DNA of 64,000 bases, from the NCBI RefSeq assembly GCF_900188325.1, contig NZ_FZPD01000004.1:564501-628500 (forward strand), written 5' to 3'. Shown here one piece after another: positions 55,329-61,748 of the stretch (position 1 is its first letter; the number at the start of each line of letters is the position of its first letter). The notes beneath the pieces were generated by a model, which was not told the origin of the DNA, ran no database searches, and worked only from the letters and a program-made list of their open reading frames with translations. The position numbers were made by a program, and so were the translations under genes. This DNA is from Ekhidna lutea. GTDB lineage: Bacteria; Bacteroidota; Bacteroidia; Cytophagales; Cyclobacteriaceae.

Positions 55329-57116
55329 ATGAAAAAAAGACATTCATATGATTATGGCCTGATTGGTAACTGTGCCTTTACAGCACATGTAGGTCTAGAT
55401 ACCAATATTGCATGGATGTGCTGGCCAAGATTTGATAGTAGTTTCATTTTTGGACAACTGCTCGACAATAAGAAAGGTGGGGCCTATACAGTCCTACCGA
55501 GTCATGAAAGATGGTCTTCCAAACAGTATTACGTAGAAAACACTAATGTTTTGTGTACTGAAATTACGGGAGAGTCCGGTACTTACAGGGTAACAGACTT
55601 TGCTCCTCGCTTTCGTCAAATGGATCGATACTATAAACCATTGATGCTCATTCGAAAAATAGAGCGTATCAGCGGAAATCCAAAAATCACTGTACAATGT
55701 AATCCGGTTGGAGATTATGGTGAAGTAACTCCCGAGCATAGTTTAGGAAGTAATCATATCCGGTTTTTGGGCCTGAAATCGAACGTAAGACTTACAACCA
55801 ACATTTCGTTAAGCTATGTGCTAAATCAGGAGTCTTTTGTTCTCAATGAGACGAAATACCTCGCCCTGACATGGGGGCCGCCACTGGAGGCTGCTCTGAA
55901 AGAAACTTGTGATAATTTTTTAACCAAAACAGTTAACTATTGGCAAGGCTGGATCAAAACAGCCAACATTACAAACTTTTATCAAAAGGAAGCCATCCGA
56001 TCCGCTCTGGCATTAAAGATTCATCAGTATGAAGATACAGGTGCCATTGTAGCGGCTACTACCACTAGTTTACCGGAAAGTCCCGGAAGCACCCGAAATT
56101 GGGATTATCGCTATTGCTGGATGCGGGATACCTACTACACGCTGAATGCATTCAACAACATTGGTCACTTTGAGGAACTAGAACGCTATTTTCATTACAT
56201 CCTAAACACTACCATTGAGGAAGATGACCGCTATCAACCCTTATATGGAATTACCGGAGAAAAGAAATTGGTGGAAAAGACACTAGACTTAAATGGCTAT
56301 CAAAACAATGCACCCGTCAGGGTAGGCAATGATGCGTATACACACATTCAAAATGATGTGTACGGTCAGGTTCTCATCTCTCTTTTACCTCTATTCAGTG
56401 ATGGACGAATCGTTTTTGAGGAAAGATTTAATACTTCAGAGTTGATTTTCAAAACCTTGAAAATGATGGAAAAAGCCTTCTCCGAAAAGGATGCAGGATT
56501 ATGGGAATTTAGAAACCTGGCACAACATCATTGCTATACCTACCTATTCAACTGGGCCGGCAGTAATGCTGCCATTAAAATTGCTCGTAAACTTGGAGAT
56601 GACAAGATAGGTGAGCTAGCTACAAAGCTAAAAACCAAGTCAGCGAAAATGATAGAAAAGTGCATGGTGCCTGCTAAGAAAGGCTATGCTCAGGCAGTTG
56701 GAACGGATCGTATGGATGCAAGTACCCTCCAACTGATCATGATGAATTATCTGGATCCCAATTCAAAAGAGGCAAAGAATCATCTGAAAGCACTTGAAAA
56801 AGAACTCCATGCCGGAGATGGGCTTTTTTACAGATACAAGCATATCGATGATTTCGGGGAGCCGGAGACGACATTTTTAATCTGCGCATATTGGTACATT
56901 GAAGCACTGGCCTGTGTCGGTAGGCTTGATGAGGCAATTGCACATTTTGAAAAATTAAATGGCTATGCAAATCATGTAGGCCTATTAAGTGAAGACGTTA
57001 AGGCTGCTGATGGTAGCATGTGGGGAAACTTCCCTCAGGCGTATAGTCATGTTGGTTTGTTGAATGCTGCAAGTAGAATATCAAGGAAATTAGATTTGCC
57101 TGATTTTCTTAGCTAG
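55329..57116 (+). CDS. Glycoside hydrolase family 15 protein (glucoamylase/trehalase-like)
   Basis: A 595-residue cytosolic enzyme. The N-terminal super-beta-sandwich (YDYGLIGNCAFTAHVGLDTN; IAWMCWPRFDSSFIFGQLLD) precedes the (alpha/alpha)6 barrel with STRNWDYRYCWMRDTYYTLN and the catalytic acids in WEFRNLAQHHCYTYL and FGEPETTFLICAYWYIEAL. Bacterial family members cleave trehalose or alpha-glucans. The convergent neighbour makes trehalose, so a trehalase role is reasonable but unproved. Stops overlap by 8 bp. Confidence 0.9.
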   Translation: MKKRHSYDYGLIGNCAFTAHVGLDTNIAWMCWPRFDSSFIFGQLLDNKKGGAYTVLPSHERWSSKQYYVENTNVLCTEITGESGTYRVTDFAPRFRQMDRYYKPLMLIRKIERISGNPKITVQCNPVGDYGEVTPEHSLGSNHIRFLGLKSNVRLTTNISLSYVLNQESFVLNETKYLALTWGPPLEAALKETCDNFLTKTVNYWQGWIKTANITNFYQKEAIRSALALKIHQYEDTGAIVAATTTSLPESPGSTRNWDYRYCWMRDTYYTLNAFNNIGHFEELERYFHYILNTTIEEDDRYQPLYGITGEKKLVEKTLDLNGYQNNAPVRVGNDAYTHIQNDVYGQVLISLLPLFSDGRIVFEERFNTSELIFKTLKMMEKAFSEKDAGLWEFRNLAQHHCYTYLFNWAGSNAAIKIARKLGDDKIGELATKLKTKSAKMIEKCMVPAKKGYAQAVGTDRMDASTLQLIMMNYLDPNSKEAKNHLKALEKELHAGDGLFYRYKHIDDFGEPETTFLICAYWYIEALACVGRLDEAIAHFEKLNGYANHVGLLSEDVKAADGSMWGNFPQAYSHVGLLNAASRISRKLDLPDFLS

Positions 57117-59283
57117 TAAGGTCAATGAGAATTTTTCGAATGTCTTCATAACTCTCTACTCTGAAATTTGCTGAGGACGAAGAGTACCCTACTTTCACCG
57201 TAAACGCTTCCTCAGGCATCACTTTAAAAGTATCTTCATCGGTCCAGTCATCACCACAAGCCATGTGAAAATCATATGACTGATCTTTTAGCCATTCGGC
57301 CGCCGCATGCCCTTTATTTACATGCGAATTTTTTACCTCAATAACCTTATGACCTTCCATGATCTGAATGTCTTTCTCTGAGGAGATATATTTCAAATGA
57401 CTTGTGAGTTCACGCGTACGCATTTCACCAAGCCCAGTTTCCACTTTACGGTAATGCCAGACAAGTGAGTAATCTTTTTCTTCCACGAAAGAGCCGGGTG
57501 TTCGATCTACATACATTTCAAGCACTTCTAAAAAATCGTCCTTCCAGGTATTATCAACTTGAACAAGCTGAGCCCATTCCTCCTTACATTTTTTATACCA
57601 AACCCCGTGCTCTGCAATAACATCTACAGGATATTTTTCCATCCAGCCACCCAATGTTTGTCGATCACGACCACTGATAACCACGACCTTATTTTTAGGG
57701 TCTTTAGTAAGTTTTTCAAGAATTTCTTTGAGCTCAGTATCTGGCTTTGAATCATTGGGGTCTTTAAAAAACCCAACAAGTGTACCGTCATAATCAAGAA
57801 AAATTATTCTCTTTTTTGCACCCTTATACTTCTCCTTTAATAGCTCTAGAATGTTTTTATCAAGTGGTTTTGTCTGAAGATTCTCCTGCTCCTTTTTAAT
57901 GAAAGCTAGCCGTTTCATAAACAAATTAACCCATGCATGGATGTTATATCGTTTTAGTGATTCCTGCATGATGTGCATCCTTCGCTGTTGCTCATCTTCC
58001 GGCATAGTCAAAGCCTCTTTAATTGCCGCAACCAGCTGTCTGATATCATTGGGGTTGATAAGAATAGCATCAGATAACTCTTTCGAAGCACCGGCCATTT
58101 CGCTCAGGATCAACACTCCTTTTTTATCCAATTTGCTTGCAATAAACTCTTTACAAACAAGATTCATCCCATCCCTCATTGGTGTCACCAGTGCTACATG
58201 AGCCATTCGGTAAAAGGCACTCAACGCATTCAATGGGAAGCTGCGATAAAAATAATGAATAGGCATCCAATTCATTTTACCAAATCGGCCATTTATCCTT
58301 CCAACCAGCAAGTCAATTTCTTCCTTGAGCTGAGCATATTTTGGAACCTTATCTCTTGACGGAACGACCACCATCAGAAGAGATACCTTTCCCTGGAAAT
58401 CTTCATTTTCTTCTAAAAATTGCTCAAATGCTAATAGTCGCTGAGGTATGCCCTTTGAGTAATCCAGTCTGTCAATTGTTAGAATAAGTTTTACATCTCC
58501 CAAAGAAGTCCGATATCGAACCTCCCGATCGAGCGTGTCTGGCAAAGCAGCCGCACTCGCATACTTGTCATAGTCAATACCCATTGGTAATGCATCTGCA
58601 AGCACAGGGCGGTTACCCACGTTTATCTGTCCATTGGAGTTGCCAATTCCGGCCAGTCGATTGACGCTGGACAGAAAGTGACGCATGTCATCGTAAGTGT
58701 GGAACCCTAGGAAATCAGCTCCCATCATGCCATTCAGAAGCTCCCTTCGCCAGGGGAGCAGTCGAAATGATTCAAAGCTCGGGAAAGGAATGTGAAGAAA
58801 AAAGCCAATGCTTGTTTGTGCATTAATATCACGGACCATCTGGGGCAATAAGAGTAGTTGGTAATCATGAATCCATAACGTATCACCTTCCTCCAAAACC
58901 TCCTCAATTGCCTTCGCAAACTTTCTGTTTACCTTTTTATAAGCTAGCCAAAGGTGTTCTTCGTAAACAGCATATTGATTAAAATAATGAAAATTTGGCC
59001 ATAGGGTTTCGTTACTAAACCCTTCATAAAAATCTTCTATTTCAGACGTGTTGAGAAAAACAGGCTTCATGTTTTCCTCTGTTAGCCTTTCCACAATTTC
59101 TTCCTTCTCCTTCGTTTTTTGTATGGCCAAACCCGGCCAACCAATCCAAATATTATCGCCTTCTTTATAAATGGACCCCAAGCCGGTAGCAAGGCCTCCT
59201 TCGCTGGGCTTGTAACTCAACTTATCTTCTTCACGCTGTATTTTAATAGGCAGTCTGTTAGAAACTATGATGGTTTTTGGCAT
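57109..59283 (-). CDS. otsAB: Fused trehalose-6-phosphate synthase/phosphatase (OtsA-OtsB)
   Basis: A 724-residue bifunctional enzyme. Residues ~1-465 are a GT20 synthase (SNRLPIKIQREEDKLSYKPS; WIHDYQLLLLPQMVRD; IDRLDYSKGIPQRLLAFEQF; DGMNLVCKEFIASK). Residues ~490-724 are a HAD phosphatase with the nucleophile motif FLDYDGTLVGFF, VVISGRDRQTLGGWM and ACGDDWTDEDTFKVM. It makes trehalose from UDP-glucose and glucose 6-phosphate without releasing the phosphate intermediate. Both domains have their catalytic residues. Confidence 0.95.
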   Translation of the reverse strand: MPKTIIVSNRLPIKIQREEDKLSYKPSEGGLATGLGSIYKEGDNIWIGWPGLAIQKTKEKEEIVERLTEENMKPVFLNTSEIEDFYEGFSNETLWPNFHYFNQYAVYEEHLWLAYKKVNRKFAKAIEEVLEEGDTLWIHDYQLLLLPQMVRDINAQTSIGFFLHIPFPSFESFRLLPWRRELLNGMMGADFLGFHTYDDMRHFLSSVNRLAGIGNSNGQINVGNRPVLADALPMGIDYDKYASAAALPDTLDREVRYRTSLGDVKLILTIDRLDYSKGIPQRLLAFEQFLEENEDFQGKVSLLMVVVPSRDKVPKYAQLKEEIDLLVGRINGRFGKMNWMPIHYFYRSFPLNALSAFYRMAHVALVTPMRDGMNLVCKEFIASKLDKKGVLILSEMAGASKELSDAILINPNDIRQLVAAIKEALTMPEDEQQRRMHIMQESLKRYNIHAWVNLFMKRLAFIKKEQENLQTKPLDKNILELLKEKYKGAKKRIIFLDYDGTLVGFFKDPNDSKPDTELKEILEKLTKDPKNKVVVISGRDRQTLGGWMEKYPVDVIAEHGVWYKKCKEEWAQLVQVDNTWKDDFLEVLEMYVDRTPGSFVEEKDYSLVWHYRKVETGLGEMRTRELTSHLKYISSEKDIQIMEGHKVIEVKNSHVNKGHAAAEWLKDQSYDFHMACGDDWTDEDTFKVMPEEAFTVKVGYSSSSANFRVESYEDIRKILIDLTS

Positions 59284-59415: not shown

Positions 59416-59448
59416 TTTGGAGAATATAAAATTCCTGATCTACGTTTG
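59416..59448 (+). promoter_or_regulatory. Promoter of the metX-hom leader
   Basis: TTTG (59416-59419), a 21-bp spacer, and TACGTTTG (59441-59448), an exact TAnnTTTG match. The transcript would begin near 59453, just before the switching hairpin and riboswitch. Confidence 0.75.
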
Positions 59449-59455
59449 CATCATC

Positions 59456-59476
59456 AAATCGATAAGGTATCGATTT
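59456..59476 (+). promoter_or_regulatory. 5' hairpin competing with riboswitch P1
   Basis: AAATCGATA / TATCGATTT is a perfect 9-bp stem with loop AGG. Its 3' arm (59468-59476) shares bases with the 5' strand of the riboswitch P1 (59469-59479), so only one of the two can form. Confidence 0.6.
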
Positions 59477-59580
59477 ATAAAGAAGCGCCGAGAGACAGGC
59501 TCTATGACGCGCTAGCAACCCCTCCTAAAATAGGAAACGGTGCTAATTCCTGTCCCGATTATCGGGAAATATAAATTGAT
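59469..59580 (+). ncRNA. SAM-I (S-box) riboswitch
   Basis: The conserved core is visible: GCGCCGAGAGACAGGCTC (59485-59502), then TATGACGCGCTAGCAACC (59503-59520) and GGTGCTAATTCC (59539-59550). P1 is 59469-59479 with 59570-59580 (11 pairs, one G-T). P2 is closed by GCGC / GCGC, P3 has CCTA-AAA-TAGG, and P4 is TCCCGA / TCGGGA (59553-59567). S-adenosylmethionine binding would stabilise P1. It precedes metX-hom, so it senses the end of methionine metabolism. P1 ends 4 bases before the ATG of the leader ORF at 59585, so its output may be translation of that ORF. Confidence 0.93.
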
Positions 59581-59584
59581 TATT

Positions 59585-59692
59585 ATGAACACAACAAGAT
59601 TTTCATTCCGCTACAGGAACTCGACATTGAGTCAAGCTTACGCCTCATCGATTTCACACTCATGTATGTGCTGTTGTTGTATCTGTCTGTGA
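59585..59692 (+). CDS. Candidate cysteine-rich leader peptide of metX-hom
   Basis: A 35-codon ORF, MNTTRFSFRYRNSTLSQAYA in its first 20 residues, ending SHSCMCCCCICL. Six Cys and one Met fall in the last nine residues (codons 59663-59689). It starts 4 bases after riboswitch P1 and stops about 100 bp before metX. A terminal Cys run in a short ORF before sulfur-amino-acid genes suggests sensing of Cys-tRNA by ribosome stalling. A hairpin TGTATC / GATACA (59678-59696) overlaps the stop. Length, position and composition make chance unlikely, but translation is unproved. Confidence 0.7.
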   Translation: MNTTRFSFRYRNSTLSQAYASSISHSCMCCCCICL

Positions 59693-59737
59693 TACACTCG
59701 TAAGTCCCAAACATTAAATCATTTGGCAGGTGTACCC

Positions 59738-59765
59738 AATACATGGATTTTTCTATCCATGTATT
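59738..59765 (+). promoter_or_regulatory. Hairpin between the Cys leader and metX
   Basis: Perfect 11-bp stem AATACATGGAT / ATCCATGTATT with a 6-base loop, 31 bases before the metX ATG and without a T tract, so probably a translational or processing element. The 5' arm bases ATACATG (59739-59745) can instead pair with CATGTAT (59661-59667) in the Cys codons of the leader. Confidence 0.6.
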
Positions 59766-59796
59766 AACCAATCAGTTTTACGCAAATTACAACAAC

Positions 59797-60774
59797 ATGG
59801 AAACGGCATTATCTAAGGTTAATTTTCTTGGTTTTAAGGTTGAGGAACCTTTGGTCCTGGAGAGTGGAGACACTCTTCGGGATCTTAGGATCCGATATAC
59901 AACTATTGGAGAATTAAATGAAACCAAATCAAATGTTGTTTGGGTTTTTCATGCCCTCACAGCAAATAGTGATCCATCCGAATGGTGGAAAGATCAAATA
60001 GGAATTAACAGGTTTATCAATCCTGAGCAGGATTTTATTGTGTGTGCAAATATGCCTGGCTCTTGTTATGGAAGCACTAAACCAGAAAGTTTCGATTTTC
60101 CAACCTTAACAATTGGTGATCTTGTACGATCATTTCAGCAGCTGAAGGCACACCTGGGAATTGATAAAATTAAGCTTGGAATTGGCGGATCAATGGGAGG
60201 ACAGGTGCTGCTTCAGTGGGCAGTGGATGAACCTGATCTATTTGAAACCATCGTTCCAATTGCAACAAATGCAAGACATTCTGCATGGGGCATTGCTTTC
60301 AATGAAGCTCAGCGAATGGCATTAATCCAGCCCGACCTTGAAAATGGCCTGAAAGCTGCGCGTGCTATTGCACTACTTTCTTATCGCCATTATGATACGT
60401 TTGACAAAACGCAATCTGATGATGATGGAAGGGTGGAACAATTTTCTGCGGCTTCATATCAACGATATCAAGGCGAAAAACTAGTGAAACGCTTCTCTCC
60501 GTATAGCTACTACACCCTTTCCAAGGCTATGGATAGCCACAACATAGGAAGGTACTATGATGGTGATTTGAAAAAGGCTTTGAGTCGCATTAAATCCAAT
60601 GCAATTATCATCGGAGTGGACTCTGACATACTGTTTCCACCTCAGGAACAAGCCTTTATTGCAGCCCAAATTCAAAACAGCTCATTTCATACAATTGAAA
60701 GCTTATATGGACACGATGGATTTTTACTAGAGACTGAGCAGATCGACAACATTTTAACTAAAGAACTATCATGA
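59797..60774 (+). CDS. metX: Homoserine O-acetyltransferase
   Basis: A 325-residue alpha/beta hydrolase that acetylates homoserine for methionine synthesis. Catalytic triad: Ser in IGGSMGGQVLLQWAV, Asp in IIGVDSDILFPPQEQ, His in LYGHDGFLLETEQ. Oxyanion/substrate text VFHALTANSDPSEWWKDQIG also fits. ATG 59797 (METALSKVNFLGFKVEEPL) is chosen; an in-frame ATG at 59743 lies inside the 59738-59765 hairpin and would add 18 residues. Overlaps hom by 4 bp. Confidence 0.93.
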   Translation: METALSKVNFLGFKVEEPLVLESGDTLRDLRIRYTTIGELNETKSNVVWVFHALTANSDPSEWWKDQIGINRFINPEQDFIVCANMPGSCYGSTKPESFDFPTLTIGDLVRSFQQLKAHLGIDKIKLGIGGSMGGQVLLQWAVDEPDLFETIVPIATNARHSAWGIAFNEAQRMALIQPDLENGLKAARAIALLSYRHYDTFDKTQSDDDGRVEQFSAASYQRYQGEKLVKRFSPYSYYTLSKAMDSHNIGRYYDGDLKKALSRIKSNAIIIGVDSDILFPPQEQAFIAAQIQNSSFHTIESLYGHDGFLLETEQIDNILTKELS

Positions 60775-61748
60775 AAACACCCGAGAAAATAGGATTATTT
60801 GGGTTTGGAACCGTCGGCAAAGGATTCTATGAGAATTTAAAAAAGCAGCCAAACTTGCCAGCAATCATCTCCAAGGTGTGTGTCAAAAGATTGGATTTAC
60901 CACGTATTGGTCACGAATTGTATTTCACTAATGATCCGGAAGAGTTGCTTTCAGATCCAGAACTGGATATCATCATTGAATTGATTGATGACCCGGAGGC
61001 AGCTAAAATATATGTGGAAAAGGCACTTGCAAGCGGGAAGCATGTGATCAGTGCAAATAAGAAAATGATTGGAGATTCACTGGATGAAGTAGACCGATGG
61101 CACCAACGATTCACCGGTAATTTTCTCTATGAAGCTGCTGTGGGAGGGGGTATCCCTATTGTTCATGCAATAGATGGATTTTATAGAGATCAGGAAATCC
61201 TCAAAATCAGAGGAATACTCAACGGATCTTCAAATTACATTTTGACACAAATGCAACTCCAAAACTGGACTTATGAAAAAGCCCTAAAAGATGCCCAACT
61301 CAAAGGGTTTGCAGAGCGGTATCCATCTCTGGATGTGAGTGGAATGGATGCTTCTTACAAACTTTCCATTCTTGCCTATCATGCCTTTGGGAAAGTCCCT
61401 TCTATGAAAAGTTTTGAAGTACATAGCATTGAAGAAGTGTCTAAAGAAGACATCAAAAAAGCCAAGATGAAAAATAGAAAAATAAAGCCTATCGCTACAC
61501 TAACCTTGCAGGATAGCGAAATCAATTGTATCATCAAACCTGAGGCTGTCGGCCCAAATGATGAATTCTATTCCGTGGATTATGAAAATAATGCGGTGAG
61601 TGTGGAGACATTGATAAGCGGAAAACATGTGGCCGTGGGCAAAGGAGCCGGCTCACTTCCAACAGGCTCATCGGTGATTGAAGATCTGAAGCGTCTCCTC
61701 CAGGGTTACAATTATCAGGTAGGTAAAAGGGTTAAGACTGTTGTATAA
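60771..61748 (+). CDS. hom: Homoserine dehydrogenase, short form without ACT domain
   Basis: A 325-residue NAD(P)-dependent enzyme that makes homoserine from aspartate semialdehyde, supplying MetX. N-terminal Rossmann motif GLFGFGTVGKGFYENL; KHVISANKKMIG with the catalytic Lys; GILNGSSNYILTQMQLQNWT and DVSGMDASYKLSILAYHAFG of the catalytic domain. It lacks the ~90-residue C-terminal ACT domain that gives threonine feedback in longer forms. Joined to metX by an ATGA overlap, so it is probably committed to methionine. Confidence 0.93.
   Translation: MKTPEKIGLFGFGTVGKGFYENLKKQPNLPAIISKVCVKRLDLPRIGHELYFTNDPEELLSDPELDIIIELIDDPEAAKIYVEKALASGKHVISANKKMIGDSLDEVDRWHQRFTGNFLYEAAVGGGIPIVHAIDGFYRDQEILKIRGILNGSSNYILTQMQLQNWTYEKALKDAQLKGFAERYPSLDVSGMDASYKLSILAYHAFGKVPSMKSFEVHSIEEVSKEDIKKAKMKNRKIKPIATLTLQDSEINCIIKPEAVGPNDEFYSVDYENNAVSVETLISGKHVAVGKGAGSLPTGSSVIEDLKRLLQGYNYQVGKRVKTVV

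Follow-up and report, generated by a model that had tools for sequence, protein, structure and literature searches.

A conserved cysteine-coded leader ORF directly behind a SAM-I riboswitch: a candidate two-input regulator of sulfur-incorporating genes in Bacteroidota

A short open reading frame (ORF) that closes with a run of cysteine codons lies directly behind a SAM-I riboswitch aptamer, and upstream of a metX-like gene, in the 64-kb window (the whole stretch of DNA analysed here). We think it likely that the two elements act together as one composite 5′ regulator made of two successive sensors, in which the SAM aptamer gates a leader with Cys and Met codons and the position of the ribosome on that leader sets metX output. 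The Cys leader itself is real and conserved, and it is more widespread than was thought in the earlier note on this DNA, which had picked out the ORF from the sequence as a leader before metX.

Results

A Cys leader behind a SAM-I aptamer in the window

The ORF reported in the earlier note, 35 codons with six Cys and one Met before the stop, is confirmed (Table 1). Its full translation is MNTTRFSFRYRNSTLSQAYASSISHSCMCCCCICL and its C-terminal end is SHSCMCCCCICL; the codons of the control region read TGT ATG TGC TGT TGT TGT ATC TGT, giving CMCCCCIC with all six Cys and the Met, and no NCBIfam match was obtained for the 35 residues. Unseen in that note was the SAM-I aptamer (S box), which matches RF00162 over its full length (model positions 1–108 of 108), so that membership of the SAM-I family is given by sequence and structure. 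It has P1 arms GATTTATA and TATAAATT and is the sole Rfam match in the window at gathering scores. The minimum free energy (MFE) fold of 59455–59815 contains P1 (z -4.07), and the leader ATG is 7 nt 3′ of the last aptamer base (59577). The aptamer changes the interpretation: the idea of a cysteine-coded leader peptide is supported by the survey and by the coding evolution described below, whereas that of a stand-alone Cys leader is not, as the ORF stands directly behind a riboswitch that probably controls whether the leader is translated.

Table 1. Features of the leader region and the genes behind it (window positions).
Feature	Position	Strand	Details
Candidate Bacteroidota promoter, TTTG-N21-TAcgTTTG	59416–59448	+	23 nt 5′ of the aptamer
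SAM-I riboswitch aptamer (S box, RF00162), type A	59472–59577	+	82 bits, gathering score 44.4, E 8.4e-18
Leader ORF, 35 aa	59585–59692	+	ATG at 59585, stop TGA at 59690–59692
Control region, Cys Met Cys Cys Cys Cys Ile Cys	59663–59686	+	codons in text; conserved Cys columns
Possible stem-loop directly 3′ of the leader stop	59693–59734	+	single-sequence fold only
Hairpin AATACATGGAT/ATCCATGTATT	59738–59765	+	46–73 nt 3′ of the leader stop, no U-tract
metX-like homoserine O-acyltransferase	59797–60774	+	TIGR01392, 290.7 bits (1.5e-86) against a curated cut-off of 500, hence family by similarity only; alternative start 59743
Homoserine dehydrogenase	60771–61748	+	NF004976, 272.9 bits, cut-off 205; 4-nt overlap with metX

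The candidate promoter matches a consensus that we take to be of the Bacteroidota type; since the pattern is found in the window at chance frequency (6 occurrences, with 5.7 expected), the case for it is its position. Upstream of the leader, a divergent ORF on the reverse strand (57109–59283), named by eye, is like trehalose-phosphate synthase/phosphatase, and a gene similar to it also neighbours the leader at one of the surveyed loci (L029). On the other side of the leader ORF, the predicted stem-loop next to the stop would be within reach of a ribosome positioned at the Cys codons or at the stop. The hairpin further on contains an in-frame ATG (59743), 54 nt 5′ of the likely metX start, and metX may have two starts (59743 and 59797).

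A run of four TGY codons (TGYTGYTGYTGY, TGYx4) has 25 matches genome-wide, or 20 sites when overlapping matches are merged. Eighteen of the 20 overlie a different frame that stays open between stops over 180–1004 codons, and two among those 18 (L370 and L375) also close a short ORF with CCCC and a few residues. The only sites free of a long open frame are the window leader and L383 (C11:459194), both behind a SAM riboswitch. The host genome contains three SAM aptamers, two of which are of type A (TTTATA in the P1 5′ arm, end ATATAAATT), each with a Cys-run ORF directly after it. At the second such locus (L002, C11:459030 on), the SAM aptamer is followed by the Cys leader MKNAHKHFQDIQLLNTHTRSMCCCCC, with its ATG directly at the aptamer end, and then by a gene for a PLP enzyme. 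The third aptamer (L003) stands before metH; its P1 ends are different, and no Cys-run ORF follows it.

Cys leaders follow one type of SAM aptamer

The association was surveyed with 148 SAM aptamers in 96 genomes of the host's order and 72 from outside the order. Aptamers were classed by the 5′ arm of P1, type A being those with TTTATA there (81 type A, 67 others). A leader ORF was taken to start with ATG or GTG between -8 and +21 of the aptamer end and to have 15–70 codons, and it was scored as Cys+ with at least three Cys within its last 16 residues. All prevalence figures concern the loci read, which were picked from listings of the best matches, about 150 in each.

Within the order, a short ORF follows 71 of the 81 type-A aptamers, with at least three Cys at 55 and two Cys at 5 more, compared with 22 of the 67 other-type aptamers, where three ORFs have at least three Cys and two have two. 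The three Cys-leader loci among the other types (L104, L115, L170) have P1 arms that are close to type A. Outside the order, none of the 72 aptamers has an ORF with at least three Cys beside it. The position of the start is restricted, as the 55 type-A Cys leaders all begin between -7 and +15 of the aptamer end, 42 of them 7–10 nt after it. The earlier note had judged the Cys density improbable by chance, and the comparison of frames agrees: at the 81 type-A loci, 54 leader frames have a cluster of at least three Cys before a stop; among the remaining forward frames 2 of 172 have one, and among the reverse frames 7 of 243.

Homologous leaders that lack the ORF or its Cys codons, named in that note as grounds for refutation, do exist as a minority. 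Within the range searched, 26 of the 81 type-A loci show no ORF that reaches three Cys (10 lack an ORF altogether and 5 have one with two Cys); at one of the 26 (L119) a Cys leader begins further on. Seven type-A loci (L042, L045, L048, L123, L126, L139 and L148) have a short ORF at the same spacing with 0–1 Cys near its end, and at L166 a type-A aptamer is without a leader and metX itself starts at +9.

At least one Cys leader is present among the loci read in 50 of the 96 genomes and 11 of the 18 families. Of the 68 genomes with a type-A locus read, 48 have a Cys leader behind an aptamer of that type. A gapped DNA pattern search of titled genome records returned at least 116 stretches; among the matches listed, 22 of 116 have an in-frame Cys ORF (16 of 80 plus 6 of 36), and all 22 match RF00162. 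By record title, these are from Rufibacter, Pontibacter, Sabulibacter, Nafulsella, Cesiribacter, Botryobacter, Thermoflexibacter, Microscillaceae, Flammeovirgaceae, Cytophagales, Lewinella, Mucilaginibacter, and metagenome-assembled genomes titled Bacteroidetes or 'bacterium'. A Microscillaceae locus (L251) and one of the host's order (L041) have the same leader.

One genus (g28) has the type-A end followed by GTG in 101 of 120 genomes by pattern, usually in one to four places. Among the matches listed, 28 of 30 loci are GTG-started short ORFs with Cys clusters, all 28 with a SAM aptamer (25 by short motif, 3 by Rfam); the remaining two (L361 and L365) have no GTG-started Cys leader. Leaders in this genus (e.g. 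L337–L366) start with GTG and often have two Cys clusters, and the genes that they precede include an ATP-grasp gene and a gene starting MLKKSLELL.

Beyond the order, two Cys-leader loci were found at class level, L074 and L396, the latter one of five new loci read. L074, in another family of the class, has a SAM aptamer, a GC-rich hairpin with a T-run, a separate Cys leader and then metY; such an arrangement of two switches in series is as expected of two independent sensors. Judged by sequence, the module of SAM aptamer and Cys leader is common in the host's order and occurs in other Bacteroidota (Lewinella, Mucilaginibacter).

Cys leaders precede sulfur-incorporating genes

Downstream genes were classed with short motifs, not HMMs, that we take to be characteristic of MetY, MetX, MetH and the other classes, and 15 of the 148 loci fall in no class. 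The 58 Cys-leader loci precede genes for MetY (33), MetX (4), CysH (3), OsmC-like proteins (3), ferredoxin (2), FNR (2), SiR-like proteins (2), another PLP enzyme (2) and ATP-grasp (1), with 6 unclassed and no MetH. By contrast, MetH is the gene at 51 of the 64 other-type loci; 5 more have a PLP enzyme of one of two kinds and 8 an unclassed gene, and none has MetY or MetX. MetY or MetX is thus behind 37 of 58 Cys leaders and 0 of 64 other-type aptamers, and MetH behind 0 of 58 and 51 of 64, respectively. Where a type-A aptamer has no Cys leader in range (26 loci), the gene is MetX (11), MetY (9), MetH (2) or another (4). The earlier note had linked the leader to metX; across the 58 Cys-leader loci, the gene that follows is MetX-like at 4 and MetY-like (33), CysH-like (3) or of another kind at the rest.

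MetH only moves a methyl group, and MetX/MetY and the sulfate-reduction steps incorporate sulfur. The presence of Cys leaders on sulfur-incorporating genes and not on MetH is as expected of a sulfur sensor. By this motif-based classification, Cys leaders mark sulfur-incorporating genes, and MetH appears to be mostly under SAM control alone. At L029 (G009, reverse strand), a short ORF between the Cys leader and metX looks like what is left of a MetY C-terminus, which would fit the loss of metY from a metY-metX operon in that genus.

RNA structure after the leader stop

The 70 nt after the leader stop have a mean z of -1.33 ± 0.21 at Cys+ loci (n = 58; -1.36 in another run, the first, which used automatic gene starts), compared with +0.24 ± 0.38 after Cys-poor leaders behind the same aptamer type (n = 17, 2 below -2). 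Control segments have mean z values of -0.16 upstream of the aptamer (n = 58), -0.34 at 70–140 nt on (n = 30) and -0.59 in coding sequence, and the mean after other-type aptamers is -0.48, with 13 of 60 below -2. The excess is one of averages, with 17 of the 58 Cys+ loci below -2, and the additional pairing lies mostly 30–60 nt after the stop. In the window, z is -1.9 for the 70 nt after the stop and -2.5 for the metX start region (-60 to +40), the latter because of the hairpin at 59738–59765; MetY start regions are unstructured (z 0.35). These folding predictions indicate that RNA immediately 3′ of Cys-leader stops is structured in excess, and that RNA 3′ of Cys-poor leaders is not. The form of the structure is not conserved, being shared neither between groups nor clearly within them. 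A common consensus structure was sought in alignments of seven groups and rejected, with covariation terms near zero (-0.7 to 2.0). In this uncontrolled comparison, six groups have some pairs changed on both sides, five of the six with non-pairing cells, and for the seventh no post-stop structure was predicted.

Three simple ways of connecting leader and gene were set aside. U-tract terminators follow Cys leaders at 7 of 58 loci, not clearly above the 4.6 expected from shuffling (at other-type loci, 9 of 60 against 3.4), and the window has no terminator-like site between 59300 and 59900, so we do not favour an intrinsic terminator. Pairing of the late leader with the post-stop region is not shared between loci (mean z -0.16, n = 58, 4 of 58 below -2), and a textbook antiterminator is therefore not supported; a locus-specific antiterminator may nonetheless exist, for instance in the g1 trio (L024, L025, L105). 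The gap from leader stop to gene start has a median of 140 nt over 58 loci, when the first ATG ORF of at least 90 codons is taken as the gene (which is wrong for some loci and selects 59743 in the window), and of 128 nt over 35 MetY loci with fixed starts. Such long gaps make simple stop-start coupling or reinitiation unlikely.

A possible, if doubtful, form of the output is Rho-dependent attenuation, of which TnaC is an example. A ribosome detained where the leader ends would cover a Rho entry site after the stop, and Rho would otherwise stop transcription before metX; this would be a concrete version of the step in which ribosome position decides metX. Both the lack of U-tract terminators above chance and the long untranslated gap fit such a model, and base composition lends it weak support, as C exceeds G after the stop at Cys+ loci (0.230 vs 0.164) and C/G is above 1.5 in 39% of them compared with 13% of other-type loci. 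However, C/G is also above 1.5 in 31% of Cys-poor leaders, rut sites have no strict consensus, and the excess of post-stop structure would be left unexplained. A Rho-dependent model has also been suggested for mycobacterial Cys leaders (excerpt of PMC1262725).

The leaders evolve as coding sequence

In 16 close pairs, which are partly non-independent (L025 is used twice), pN/pS is 0.47 in the leader frame and 1.19 and 0.72 in the other two frames. By column it is 0.19 for Cys and 0.55 for the rest, and 13 of 15 gaps within leaders are multiples of three, compared with 2 of the 24 gaps beyond the stop. In 35 overlapping pairs, a set that includes both L028 and L363 although they are the same place (only L363 is among the 16), the ratio is 0.50. 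The Cys run and the frame are preserved and the remainder drifts, as the earlier note had predicted for a real leader. Sequence comparison thus has the leaders evolving as coding sequence, and the leader is probably translated. The last Cys is 0–3 codons before the stop in 80 of 85 leaders. Short length, codons for a pathway amino acid clustered near the end, and a conserved frame are traits of a ribosome-mediated amino-acid attenuator that the leaders have, as is RNA structure behind the stop; an intrinsic terminator and an antiterminator formed with the control codons, two other such traits, are not supported by the comparisons above. In these 85 leaders Met has a share of 8.9% among the last ten residues against 1.7% in the body, about a five-fold difference; 57 of the 85 were chosen for Cys content, so the Cys share is by construction and the Met share is not. 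With Met enriched near the end, the leader may be a sensor of Met as well as of Cys.

The peptide is under purifying selection, most strongly at Cys, and this, together with the sulfur-gene context, might also be read as a functional small Cys-rich protein, such as a metal or persulfide carrier, co-expressed with sulfur genes. We consider this improbable, as the number and spacing of Cys are variable, the N-terminal parts look unrelated between groups (by eye), the stop comes within three codons of the last Cys in nearly all leaders, the start is held close to the aptamer end in the 55 type-A leaders, and NCBIfam has no match for the 35 residues.

Even less expected is a role for the Cys-codon run as RNA, in which (UGU)n would pair with ACAACAAC before the metX start, hiding that start until a ribosome frees it. 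The MFE fold of the window does join GCUGUUGUUGU to ACAACAACAUGG at the metX start, but the pairing is unremarkable, since 36% of shuffles are as good for -40 to +8. Pairing of the Cys run with the start region has a mean z of 0.02 ± 0.18 at the 35 MetY loci, with 3 of 35 at 5%, and at 58 loci whose starts were assigned automatically, in some cases wrongly and in the window at 59743, the median z is 0.0 with 2 of 58 at 5/100 or better. Regulation by the aptamer alone, with the ORF a passive spacer or a TGT-repeat slippage product, would suit the 26 of 81 type-A loci where the search range holds no Cys ORF but is scarcely credible given that TGT and TGC are mixed (348 and 149 codons) and the run is hence not a pure repeat, that the Cys columns are constrained at the amino-acid level, that gaps are in frame, and that Cys clusters favour leader frames over other forward frames (54 against 2 of 172).

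Discussion

A model for the composite regulator

We propose that the two sensors would act as follows. From the position and tight spacing of the aptamer relative to the leader start, SAM binding is predicted to close P1 and so to keep the ribosome off that start. The locus at which metX itself begins at +9 without a leader makes the aptamer platform look like start-codon control. Ribosomes of Bacteroidia are described as failing to recognise Shine-Dalgarno sequences (excerpt of PMC9976891), which makes the AU-rich P1 arm beside the start a plausible control site. When SAM is low, the ribosome would read the leader through its Cys/Met end, as the codons, the frame and the selection on them suggest. 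If charged tRNA-Cys (or tRNA-Met) is short, the ribosome would be expected to slow or stop just 5′ of the leader stop, and its position relative to the structure in the following ~70 nt would decide metX, with a parked ribosome meaning expression. With the leader untranslated, or the ribosome run through, metX expression would be lower. Maximal output would require both low SAM and a shortage of sulfur amino acids, and the steps so controlled would be those that incorporate sulfur (MetX/MetY, sulfate reduction), with methyl transfer (MetH) left out. That stalling turns the genes on is assumed by analogy to attenuators already described, and also because Met codons are enriched beside the Cys codons, such that Met shortage should induce the genes.

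On balance we lean towards an aptamer-gated ribosome sensor, in which a single leader RNA would compute 'SAM low AND sulfur amino acids short' with neither a Shine-Dalgarno sequence nor an intrinsic terminator. If true, this would explain how methionine synthesis comes under separate methyl and sulfur inputs in a large group of Bacteroidota, and would constitute a natural two-input RNA gate in bacteria whose ribosomes, by the excerpted account, are blind to Shine-Dalgarno sequences (PMC9976891). The model predicts many small translated ORFs that annotation would easily overlook, and offers a case, open to experiment, in which a riboswitch would control translation initiation and thereby feed a ribosome-based sensor.

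Comparison with known systems

Each part of the arrangement has known analogues, and in the open-access literature searched we found no description of a SAM-gated Cys leader, that is, of a Cys-coded leader behind a SAM riboswitch, nor of Cys leaders in Bacteroidota. The window aptamer is like other SAM-I (S box) riboswitches of RF00162 in matching the whole model and standing before methionine genes, and unlike them in that there is no terminator-like site in the window between aptamer and gene and a leader ORF starts 7 nt on. Mycobacterial polycysteine leaders are reportedly leaderless, to go by the title of a 2020 study by Canestrari. The ORF described here would not be, if co-transcribed with the aptamer, since a full aptamer (59472–59577) lies 5′ of it.

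In mycobacteria and other Actinobacteria, a short ORF with a Cys run near its stop precedes cys operons, and no conserved terminator is described for these leaders (excerpt of PMC1262725); here, in contrast, a riboswitch precedes the ORF, the host is one of the Bacteroidota and methionine genes are frequent among those downstream. Leader peptides in general have a precedent in Bacteroidota, given the 'strong clues' for leader-peptide attenuation at amino-acid operons reported in part of a study of F. psychrophilum (PMC9723704). The uORFC-8-2 before cysS in Rhodobacterales is a uORF with tandem Cys codons for which ribosome-mediated attenuation has been proposed. It differs in that it has two Cys codons, its structure is conserved and a U run is present, with no SAM aptamer mentioned in the excerpt of the source (PMC8632094). 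Neither its U-run terminator nor a downstream cysS is present in the window.

Two further systems place a uORF under a riboswitch or next to one. At M. tuberculosis ppe2, a B12 riboswitch controls a translated uORF on which the downstream gene depends; coupling there is through an overlapping stop and start (AUGA; excerpt of PMC11260477), whereas the leaders described here have long gaps and amino-acid control codons. The Salmonella mgtA leader combines a Mg2+-sensing riboswitch with the proline-rich mgtL, whose codons sense tRNA charging, and mgtL shares base pairing with the Mg2+-sensing RNA (excerpt of PMC6460261). Here a separate SAM aptamer lies just 5′ of the ORF, and the signals proposed are SAM and sulfur amino acids.
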